64,000 nt of DNA from Allonocardiopsis opalescens (lineage in GTDB: Bacteria > Actinomycetota > Actinomycetes > Streptosporangiales > Streptosporangiaceae), in the NCBI RefSeq assembly GCF_003002095.1, contig NZ_PVZC01000001.1, forward strand, positions 1,426,001-1,490,000. Reading direction: 5' to 3'. The translations under genes and the position numbers were made by a program. Below, one piece after another: positions 55,130-58,396 of this stretch. Every line of letters starts with the position of its first letter. The first letter of the stretch is position 1. The notes under the pieces are model-generated. The model searched no databases. It was given only the letters and a program-made list of their open reading frames with translations, and was not told the origin of the DNA.

Positions 55130-55588
55130 CTAGCGGCCGCTCACCCACGCCTCGGGCTTCTCGGCCAGCTCCCGGACCGGCTGCGGGAGGTCGCCGGCCG
55201 CGATGTGGGCGAGGGTGACCGACTCCAGGATCGAGCGCTCACTGGCGCGCAGCGCGATCCAGACCTCCTGCAGGGAGCGCGCCGCCCCCTCGTAGCCGAC
55301 ATGCTCGGGCCGCTCGCCGCGCACATTGGCCAGCGGCCCGTCGACGGCCCGGATGATGTCGGCCAGCGAGATCTCCCCGGCCGCCCGCGCCAGCCAGTAC
55401 CCGCCCACCGGCCCCCGCTGGCTGCGCACCAGCCCCGCCCGCCGCAGCTGGGTCAGGATGTTCTCCAGGAACTTGCCCGGGATGGCCTGCGCTCGTGCGA
55501 GCTGTTCGGCCGTGACCGGCCCTCCGCTGGCCGCCGCCAGCTCGGCTGCGGCGCGCAGCGCGTAGTCGACCCGGGCAGAAAGACGCAT
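55130..55588 (-). CDS. Rrf2-family transcriptional regulator without cysteines
   Basis: Winged-helix regulator of 152 residues: MRLSARVDYALRAAAELA, the recognition helix region AQAIPGKFLENILTQLRRAGLVRSQRGPVGGYWLARAAGEISLADIIRAVDGPL. Unlike IscR, NsrR and RsrR, it has no cysteine at all, so it cannot hold an Fe-S cluster through Cys; another signal must control it. CATAAT six bases upstream of the ATG suggests a leaderless transcript. The divergent neighbour at 55812 may be a target. Confidence 0.9.
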   Translation of the reverse strand: MRLSARVDYALRAAAELAAASGGPVTAEQLARAQAIPGKFLENILTQLRRAGLVRSQRGPVGGYWLARAAGEISLADIIRAVDGPLANVRGERPEHVGYEGAARSLQEVWIALRASERSILESVTLAHIAAGDLPQPVRELAEKPEAWVSGR

Positions 55589-55594
55589 GGTGCG

Positions 55595-55600
55595 ATTATG
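55595..55600 (-). promoter_or_regulatory. -10 element CATAAT, leaderless Rrf2 gene
   Basis: Near-consensus hexamer on the minus strand, six bases before the ATG at 55588; no ribosome-binding site. Confidence 0.55.
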
Positions 55601-55811
55601 CCGCCATCCGCCTGCTTGGTGTGCAAACACCGCGCGGACCGGTGCCGGACGCACGATTCGTCGGCCCCGCGACCGGGTGCGGTGGTCACCGGGGCCGAAA
55701 CGCTCGGGGACCGCGTGCGACGGTCGTCGGCGCCCGGTAGAACCGGGGTGCGGCAGTGCCGTGGGCCGGCGCGGCCGGGAGGAGGCAGGGGGTGGGAGGA
55801 GAGAAGTGGAG

Positions 55812-56246
55812 ATGCGCGAGTGCTTCGGCGTCGCCTTCGTCCTTGATGGATTCCTCAAGGTGGAGCCGCCTGACGACCCTCCTCTCGATATGCGCTTCGA
55901 TGTGCGGCGGGATTTCATGGCAGGCGCACGGGACATCGTGTTCATCATGGTGGCGACGGAGTCGGGGCATATTCCGGTCAGCCTTGCCGTGGCGGAATCC
56001 GAGCCGGCGCTGCTCGCCGCCGACGACGTCGCCGTGGCTCGGCTCGATGTGGACTTCTCGGTCGACCGGATCGTCGTGTCGGACGTCGACGGGTGGATCG
56101 GCGGTCTTGCGGCGCCTCTCCCCGCCGGTCCCGGTCGCTACCGTGTCCGTGGTGAGTTGGTCAACCACGCCGCCGCACGAGCGCCGCGGGAGGACGAGGC
56201 ACCCTCGCCCGAGCGGGTCCGCATCGCGGTCTGGCCGGCGGGATGA
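55812..56246 (+). CDS. Unknown protein, paralogue A of a tandem pair
   Basis: Protein of 144 residues with no recognised domain. It is rich in predicted beta-strands (ARDIVFIMVATESGHIPVSLAVAES, VARLDVDFSVDRIVVSDVDG) and ends GPGRYRVRGELVNHAAAR then RVRIAVWPAG. The same C-terminal pattern occurs in the next gene, so the two look like diverged duplicates. No signal peptide or membrane segment. GGAGGAGAG upstream supports the ATG at 55812 (a GTG at 55806 is possible). The two genes are 37 bases apart and probably co-transcribed. Confidence 0.65.
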   Translation: MRECFGVAFVLDGFLKVEPPDDPPLDMRFDVRRDFMAGARDIVFIMVATESGHIPVSLAVAESEPALLAADDVAVARLDVDFSVDRIVVSDVDGWIGGLAAPLPAGPGRYRVRGELVNHAAARAPREDEAPSPERVRIAVWPAG

Positions 56247-56283
56247 GGCGCGGTGGAGCGGCGGAGCGGGATGGACGGCGACA

Positions 56284-56817
56284 GTGAGGGCTGAGCGGTC
56301 GGAGCGGCGGGTCTTCGCACGGACGGGGGCGGTGCGGCGGGTTCTGCTCGTGTACACCGGTGACGGTTTCGTGCGGCTGTGCGCCCCGGGGCGGGAGAGC
56401 GCGCCCCGGGCGGTGGTGCCGGACGGCGGAGTGCTCGGCGCGGGGGACGGGTTCGTCGACGTACGGCCCGCCTCGCGTGAGGAGCACCTGGTGCTGGAGC
56501 TGACCTACCGCCGGTGCGAGTACGCCGGGCCGGACCTCGCCGACGTGGCCACGGAGTCCGCCGAGGTCGTTTACGGTGCGGACCGGCTGCGGTGTGCGGA
56601 CGCGCGCGGCCCGGTCGACGGCGTGGAGCTGCCGCTGGTCGCGGGGGCGGGTCCCCATGGCGTACGGGTCGACGTCGTGGGCCACCGTGCCGCGCGTGAG
56701 CGGCCGCCGGTGCCCGGCACGTCGGCGGAGCGCATCCTGGTGGAGGTGTGGCCACGGGACGGGCTCACCGGCGCTCAGTGGACGGCGCTGCTCGGCGAGG
56801 TGCCGATCTGGGGCTGA
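56284..56817 (+). CDS. Unknown protein, paralogue B of a tandem pair
   Basis: Protein of 177 residues. An N-terminal half (VRRVLLVYTGDGFVRLCAPG) precedes a part resembling paralogue A: HLVLELTYRR, YGADRLRCADARGPVDGVELPLVAGAGP, GVRVDVVGHRAAR and RILVEVWP match A's HIPVSLAVAE, VDRIVVSDVDG, PLPAGPG, YRVRGELVNHAAAR and RVRIAVWP. The VWP tail is followed by GLTGAQWTALLGEVPIWG. Beta-rich and soluble. The GTG at 56284 has only a weak upstream site; translation may be coupled to gene A. A double terminator follows. Confidence 0.65.
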   Translation: MRAERSERRVFARTGAVRRVLLVYTGDGFVRLCAPGRESAPRAVVPDGGVLGAGDGFVDVRPASREEHLVLELTYRRCEYAGPDLADVATESAEVVYGADRLRCADARGPVDGVELPLVAGAGPHGVRVDVVGHRAARERPPVPGTSAERILVEVWPRDGLTGAQWTALLGEVPIWG

Positions 56818-56844
56818 GCCCGGGCGGAACATGAGGGAATGGGA

Positions 56845-56913
56845 CCGGGCCGGTCGTCCGGGGGGCGGACGACCGGCCCGGGTGGCCCCGTGGGAGCCAC
56901 CGACCACGGGGCC
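56845..56913. terminator. Tandem hairpins between unknown pair and GH3 gene
   Basis: A perfect 16-bp stem (CCGGGCCGGTCGTCCG, 56845-56860, with 56866-56881) round GGGGG, followed by a 10-bp stem GGCCCCGTGG/CCACGGGGCC (56884-56913). Convergent genes flank it. Confidence 0.85.
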
Positions 56914-56923
56914 GGGGGAGGGT

Positions 56924-58396
56924 CTAGGCGGTGGAGGCGCCCGTCCAGGTGCCCTGGAGGAGTTCGGTGACGGCGCGGCCGGAGGCGCGGGAGGCGCTGT
57001 AGGCGGCGATGTAGGCGGCGCACTCGGGGCGCCAGACGGGGAGGCCCATCTCCACGACGACGGTGTCGGGGCGGGCCGCGGTGAGGCGTTCGACCAGGGC
57101 TCGGGTGCGCGGGTAGCGGTGGGCGTCGCGGACGACGACCACCAGCGACCTCGGGCCCGCCTGGGCCAGGACGGCGTCGGCGCCCTCCGGGCCGGCGGGG
57201 GCGCCGTCGGCGCCGACCCGCACCACGTCGGGGCCGAAGCCCTCGGCCAGGCCCCACGGGACCGCGCCGACGGCCATACCGGGCGGGGCGTCGCACTCCA
57301 CGACCAGCGGCCGGTCCAGGGCGGGCAGCGCGCCCGACACGGTGATGGCGCGCCTGGCCGCCTCCGCGCCGACGGAGGGGTCCGGCGGGGCGGCGGCGGG
57401 CTCGGCGGCCCAGGACCGCACCCGGCGCACCCGCTCGGCCGCGTCCTCCAGCCGCTCGACCGGCAGGCGGCCCTCGCGGACGGCCGCCACGATGGCGGCG
57501 CGGATCGCCGCGACCACGTCCTCGTACTGGCTGGCGCCCAGGCAGAGCAGGTCGCAGCCGGCGAGCAGCGCCCGCACCGACGCCTCGGGCAGCCCGATGT
57601 CGGCGCTGGCGGCGCGCATCTCCAGCGCGTCGGTGATGACGAGCCCGTCGAAGCCCAGCCGGCCGCGCAGCAGTTCGCCGACGACGGCCGGGGAGAAGGT
57701 GGCCGGGCCGCCGCCGGTGAGGCCGGGCACCAGCAGGTGGCCGGTGAGCACGCAGTGCACCCCCGCGCCGATCGCGGCGCGGAACGGGGCCAGTTCGCGG
57801 GACTCCAGCAGGTCGAGGTCGGCGTCCACCAGCGGCAGGACGTGGTGGGAGTCCTGGCGGGTGGAGCCGTGGCCGGGGAAGTGCTTGGCGGCGGCGGCGA
57901 TGCCGGCCGCCTGCAGGCCGGTGACGGCCGCGGCGGCGTGCCTGCTCACCAGGTCGGGGTCGGCGCCGAAGGCGCGGGTGCCGATCACCGGGTTGTCGTC
58001 GGCGGTGTTGACGTCGACGGAGGGGGCCAGGTCCAGGTTGATGCCGACGGCGGCCAGTTCGGCGCCCAGCGAGAGGTGCACCCGCTCGGTGAGGTCCACG
58101 TCGTCCACGGCGCCCAGGGCCGCGTTGCCCGGATAGGGGCAGCCGTCGCTGTGCCAGACGCGGGTGACGTCGCCGCCCTCCTCGTCCAGCGAGACGAGCG
58201 GGTCGCCGCCGGCGGCGCGCAGCTGGTCGGACAGGGCGCGCAGCTGCTCGGGCCCGGTGATGTTGAAGGCGAACAGGCAGACCCCGCCGAGGCCGTTCTC
58301 GGCCGCGTCCAGCACCCAGCGGGGCGCGGTCGTGCCGCGGAACGGCACCAGGAGGGTCGAGTTGGCCAGGCTCTCCAGGGCCCGGTCAGCTGGCAT
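56924..58396 (-). CDS. GH3 beta-N-acetylhexosaminidase (NagZ-like)
   Basis: Glycoside hydrolase of 490 residues. The NagZ-type signature KHFPGHGSTRQDSHH lies at 171-185, giving the Asp182/His184 dyad that acts as acid-base catalyst in this subgroup; the nucleophile is Asp256 in VITDALEM. No signal peptide, so it acts in the cytoplasm on imported GlcNAc oligosaccharides or muropeptides. A C-terminal domain of about 150 residues makes it longer than E. coli NagZ. Related two-domain enzymes such as Cellulomonas fimi Nag3 act as phosphorylases, so phosphorolysis is possible. Last gene of the ABC operon, 96 bases after the permease. Confidence 0.88.
   Translation of the reverse strand: MPADRALESLANSTLLVPFRGTTAPRWVLDAAENGLGGVCLFAFNITGPEQLRALSDQLRAAGGDPLVSLDEEGGDVTRVWHSDGCPYPGNAALGAVDDVDLTERVHLSLGAELAAVGINLDLAPSVDVNTADDNPVIGTRAFGADPDLVSRHAAAAVTGLQAAGIAAAAKHFPGHGSTRQDSHHVLPLVDADLDLLESRELAPFRAAIGAGVHCVLTGHLLVPGLTGGGPATFSPAVVGELLRGRLGFDGLVITDALEMRAASADIGLPEASVRALLAGCDLLCLGASQYEDVVAAIRAAIVAAVREGRLPVERLEDAAERVRRVRSWAAEPAAAPPDPSVGAEAARRAITVSGALPALDRPLVVECDAPPGMAVGAVPWGLAEGFGPDVVRVGADGAPAGPEGADAVLAQAGPRSLVVVVRDAHRYPRTRALVERLTAARPDTVVVEMGLPVWRPECAAYIAAYSASRASGRAVTELLQGTWTGASTA

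Follow-up and report, generated by a model that had tools for sequence, protein, structure and literature searches.

The 64,000-nucleotide stretch of the Allonocardiopsis opalescens genome analyzed here (contig NZ_PVZC01000001.1, positions 1,426,001 to 1,490,000; hereafter the window, whose numbering we use) carries a tandem pair of small forward-strand genes, called A and B below. Gene A (55812..56246) encodes 144 residues from an ATG with GGAGG upstream, and gene B (56284..56817) encodes 177 residues from a GTG at 56284 or 161 residues from a GTG at 56332, leaving 37 or 85 bp between the two genes depending on the start of B. A preliminary description of the sequence had proposed that the two proteins are diverged paralogues, and our comparisons confirm it. 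BLASTP aligned 136 residues without gaps at 27% identity (E = 2e-11), through the same shared landmarks that had been picked out by eye, and phmmer returned a significant match (E = 7e-11, 39 bits), far outside the best of 2000 shuffled sequences (E = 0.35, 7.8 bits). A search of the genome with A retrieved A and B only, the latter at E = 3.1e-9, and the closest relative of B is A. Judged by sequence, A and B are thus true diverged paralogues. Both carry VWP near the C terminus; the earlier statement that both end in this motif holds for A (VWPAG), whereas B continues for 20 residues beyond it, a tail that had itself been noted.

Sequence searches place A and B in a large, unannotated actinobacterial family. 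The family query, a typical member from genome G234 that was reached via weak matches in relatives, matched sequences in 142 of the 299 genomes analyzed from the GTDB family of A. opalescens, with up to eight per genome; this GTDB family covers, among the loci named here, Nonomuraea, Herbidospora, Streptosporangium, and their relatives. Further matches were found in Nocardiopsis, Actinomadura, Streptomyces, and the alphaproteobacterium Pararhizobium, and plasmid-borne members, annotated as “hypothetical protein”, occur in Streptomyces, Rhodococcus, Embleya, Aminobacter, and Sinorhizobium. A profile of the family from which A and B had been excluded recovered A at E = 9.6e-13 and B at E = 2e-5, whereas the top-scoring of 2000 shuffled sequences reached only 0.78. 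Neither A nor B nor any relative scanned matched a Pfam or NCBIfam domain, in agreement with the preliminary description, which had recognized no known domain, and no relative of a further A. opalescens copy (locus L049, see below) was found in phages.

Modeled with AlphaFold2 from alignments of 37 rows each, A and B have predicted folds that do not differ: both proteins are all-beta, with corresponding strands. The model of A has a predicted local distance difference test (pLDDT) score of 76 and a predicted template modeling (pTM) score of 0.73, with the first 23 residues poorly modeled, and that of B reaches pLDDT 73 and pTM 0.72, with low confidence in the C-terminal tail. In Foldseek searches against the PDB, the first match of B was the Bacillus subtilis protein ComJ (4mqd; E = 9.8e-5, probability 1.0, 8–9% identity), with template modeling (TM) scores of 0.50–0.54 by query and 0.64–0.70 by target. 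CgnJ (6i86), a protein of the crocagin cluster, was the third and fourth match of B (E = 1.4e-4), nothing further fell below E = 0.7, and the sole good match of A was likewise CgnJ (E = 2.9e-3, probability 1.0). A viral fold library searched with the model of B gave no match, and no PDB sequence was significantly similar to A, to a relative, or to the family profile. By prediction, then, the family has the ComJ/CgnJ fold.

ComJ inhibits the nuclease NucA/ComI, and ComJ homologues have been described as immunity proteins of ComI/NucA toxins (PMC3482391); members of the family would therefore be expected beside NucA/NucB nucleases (PF14040). The A. opalescens genome holds exactly two PF14040 genes, which lie 98 and 124 kb upstream of gene A. 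Only 25 bp separate the end of one from a third, clear copy of the family (L049; positions 1356918–1357436 of contig C1 of this genome), and behind the other lies a very diverged ComJ-like open reading frame (L184, 1822–2541; profile E = 5.7e-5). In genome G131, likewise, a family member lies behind each of two nucleases, at distances of 4 and 80 bp, and the same order is seen at L072, L082, and L084. Relatives supplied 30 further nuclease loci, and in four of these (L189, L191, L194, and L206) a clear member lies directly behind the nuclease. On Streptomyces plasmids, a member does so in all nine loci examined (L226 and L228–L235; E from 4e-12 to 4e-51), eight of which had been selected by their nuclease and not by the family. 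At the observed densities, we estimate that chance would produce ∼0.03 such adjacencies in 299 genomes; the linkage between family and nuclease is real. This family most likely represents the counterpart of ComJ in actinobacteria.

Several of the plasmid-encoded nucleases have an N-terminal signal-like stretch, and these loci may represent a plasmid-borne nuclease–inhibitor module. The nuclease active site carries the motif CDEYPFAST. Many other nucleases among the 30 loci form the ends of giant proteins, with a member of a different immunity-like family encoded behind them: at L190, L192, L200, L203, L204, L213, and L215, a giant NucA/NucB-ending protein precedes a protein of ∼190–230 residues (WVSIED...EVARRL...GRITGRFLDR.WF), probably another family of immunity proteins.

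The family is also varied in its architecture. Tandem members recur (L011, L069, and L071), two family domains may share one chain (L085, L086, and L194/L217, of which L217 lies directly behind a nuclease), and the domain stands at the front of longer proteins at L074, L078, L080, and L081. In L013, L056, and L088, a ComJ-like domain lies C-terminal to several transmembrane-like stretches and could be located outside the cytoplasm, making this arrangement hard to reconcile with cytoplasmic immunity. At L076 (6211–7212), a ComJ-like domain is followed by a B-lectin-like stretch, and L134 (7914–8921) likewise has a ComJ-like domain; both genes lie directly behind a gene for a protein of 1153–1158 residues that starts MA[SG]RLTPTRSILNVSATAADSYRTISDAV. 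No conserved neighbour common to the orphan members of the family was seen.

In A. opalescens, the pair occupies a 1335-bp segment (55589..56923), gained or kept here, between two reverse-strand genes that serve as conserved markers of the locus. From sequence and general knowledge, we take these to encode an Rrf2-family regulator (55130..55588; 73–88% identity in relatives, with the same hexosaminidase adjoining) and a beta-N-acetylhexosaminidase-like protein (56924..58396; best matches 51–64% identical in 14 relatives of the same family). In four relatives, the gap between these flanking genes measures only 86–319 bp (198, 86, 319, and 140 bp in L170, L171, L172, and L177, respectively) and has no open reading frame resembling A or B; other relatives have a longer gap, yet with no family member inside. 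Besides the regulator and the hexosaminidase, the neighbours named by eye are a kinase, Dps, and a sugar transporter. No nuclease, effector, or toxin was found beside A and B, and the genome-wide PF14040 search placed no such nuclease within the window; by eye, no biosynthetic genes for peptide natural products were recognized beside the pair either. No convincing direct repeats marking an insertion were found around the pair. A perfect inverted repeat of 16 nt, with a loop of 5 nt (56845–56881), separates the 3′ ends of B and the hexosaminidase gene and could be a terminator used by both.

Taken together, we consider it reasonably probable that A and B are two diverged members of an actinobacterial family of ComJ-like inhibitors, kept as an orphan “polyimmunity” pair; in polyimmunity loci, distantly related immunity paralogues follow one another in tandem and no toxin accompanies them (PMC3482391). 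Under this explanation, family members would be cytoplasmic proteins that bind and block NucA/NucB deoxyribonucleases, and the block would shield the producer, or the host of a plasmid, from its own or a neighbour's nuclease. Because no nuclease lies beside them, A and B would serve as backup or cross-protective immunity proteins, directed against nucleases from other loci of the same genome or nucleases that other cells deliver. We infer accompanying properties for the pair: inhibition of a nuclease by A or B, location in the cytoplasm, and retained activity. The suggestion in the preliminary description that such genes may be immunity proteins is thus partly supported, by the predicted ComJ/CgnJ fold and by the family's linkage to NucA/NucB. 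It had also named heteromeric complexes and effector-control systems as options. Its proposal of a candidate undescribed system is not borne out, as the pair falls in a family that is widespread and has a known protein, ComJ, as its closest functional relative.

Several observations weigh against this explanation. Most sampled family members do not adjoin a nuclease, which indicates that the family has other roles as well, and A and B themselves are among those without one. The match of A to CgnJ has a TM score of just 0.36, in addition to the poorly modeled N terminus of A. At the sequence level, the Pfam profile for ComJ (PF11033) gave no match at E ≤ 10 in A, B, or 46 relatives, compared with 185 bits for ComJ itself, and hhalign assigned the family and ComJ a probability of 2.5%, aligning only the short stretch VDYHQF/ISYHQF. 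Searched with the family profile, B. subtilis ComJ (its sequence checked against 4mqd) scored E = 0.15, which is not significant, yet it was the top sequence from outside the family and stood above all 2000 shuffles. With both profile and hhalign comparisons non-significant, it is the predicted fold and the gene context, not the sequence, that connect the family to ComJ.

Further points on the same side concern the divergence of A and B from the rest of the family. Both lack the acidic motif W[DE]E(V/I)xE, kept in 16 of 18 nuclease-linked and 48 of 51 other members, and both lack HARG[RM]D (HARG[RM] is present in 15 of 18 and 20 of 51, respectively); these motifs are usual rather than invariant features of the family. 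Their net charges (−9 for A and −5 for B) are also well short of the mean of −18 among nuclease-linked members. Both proteins form long branches in the family tree, which therefore cannot place them, and their grouping there is possibly artefactual. Given the loss of the motifs and of much negative charge, the target of A and B is probably not canonical NucA, or their activity has changed, and the lost motifs make a changed target or a loss of function serious alternatives.

Loss of function is the likeliest of the alternatives: A and B could be decaying, functionless relics of an acquired and duplicated inhibitor gene, although we regard this as unlikely. The empty locus in four relatives, the lack of a convincing orthologue of either gene (other than each other) among 347 genomes of the order, and the lost motifs speak for decay, as does the weak codon adaptation of A, whose GC content at third codon positions (GC3; 0.79) is the lowest among the surrounding genes (0.82–0.98). 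Truncated or internally deleted family genes are moreover common in Streptosporangium and relatives (L132, L135, L139, and L141), where the family gene has often been lost. However, both frames are intact over 144 and 161–177 codons despite a protein identity of just 27%, both proteins retain the pattern of beta-strands as well as the VWP core at the C terminus, and the codon usage of B is ordinary. The empty locus, the missing orthologue of B, the lost motifs, and the low GC3 of A fit a pair that was gained or has long diverged.

With a changed target, A and B would be re-targeted ComJ-fold inhibitors that possibly work as a heterodimer and whose target is not a canonical NucA/NucB nuclease but, for example, nucleases of phages, plasmids, or competitors; we rate this specific version as distinctly unlikely. 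Still more doubtful is that A and B form an obligate heteromer, acting as a single inhibitor or binding protein. They are adjacent, same-strand, diverged copies, and the family members with two domain copies in one polypeptide (L085, L086, and L217) make such an assembly conceivable, but many relatives are single-copy. It is very improbable that A and B, like CgnJ, act as part of or next to a peptide natural-product pathway, or that their ligand is a peptide rather than a nuclease. CgnJ is the best structural match of A, but ComJ is the better match for B, the family's linkage is to nucleases, and no biosynthetic genes were recognized by eye beside the pair in the window.

If the family members are indeed counterparts of ComJ, nuclease–inhibitor modules extend well past Bacillus competence, many genes of unknown function acquire a testable one, and A and B would illustrate how an inhibitor diverges after separation from its nuclease. 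The family is common in Actinomycetota, present in rhizobia, and paired with NucA/NucB on Streptomyces plasmids, yet its members stand in databases as hypothetical proteins, and we found no description of the family or of the A/B pair in the open-access papers searched. The kind of system is already known, from ComJ and from polyimmunity loci; new are the size and spread of an actinobacterial branch that lacks annotation, the association of this branch with nucleases on plasmids, and the diverged orphan pair.

Compared with ComJ of B. subtilis (PF11033, 4mqd), B is similar in predicted fold and size, and family members directly downstream of NucA/NucB reproduce the nuclease–inhibitor operon of PMC3482391, whereas sequence similarity of A and B to ComJ is undetectable by Pfam or hhalign and the pair has no adjacent nuclease. 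CgnJ resembles both proteins structurally, as the best match of A and a lower-ranked match of B, but lacks a parallel in genomic setting, with no peptide natural-product genes recognized around A and B. The pair differs from the polyimmunity loci of PMC3482391 in having two genes only, with no recombinase seen beside them, and in that its immunity function is proposed by inference; it shares with those loci the tandem arrangement in the same orientation, the short spacing, the distant paralogy, and the absence of a toxin between the genes, and the relatives of A and B with two domains in one chain have their likeness among polyimmunity proteins. The tandem, non-identical esaG immunity genes of Staphylococcus (PMC9484751) are different genes, which counteract a nuclease toxin of type VII secretion, but they too form strings of diverged nuclease-immunity paralogues.
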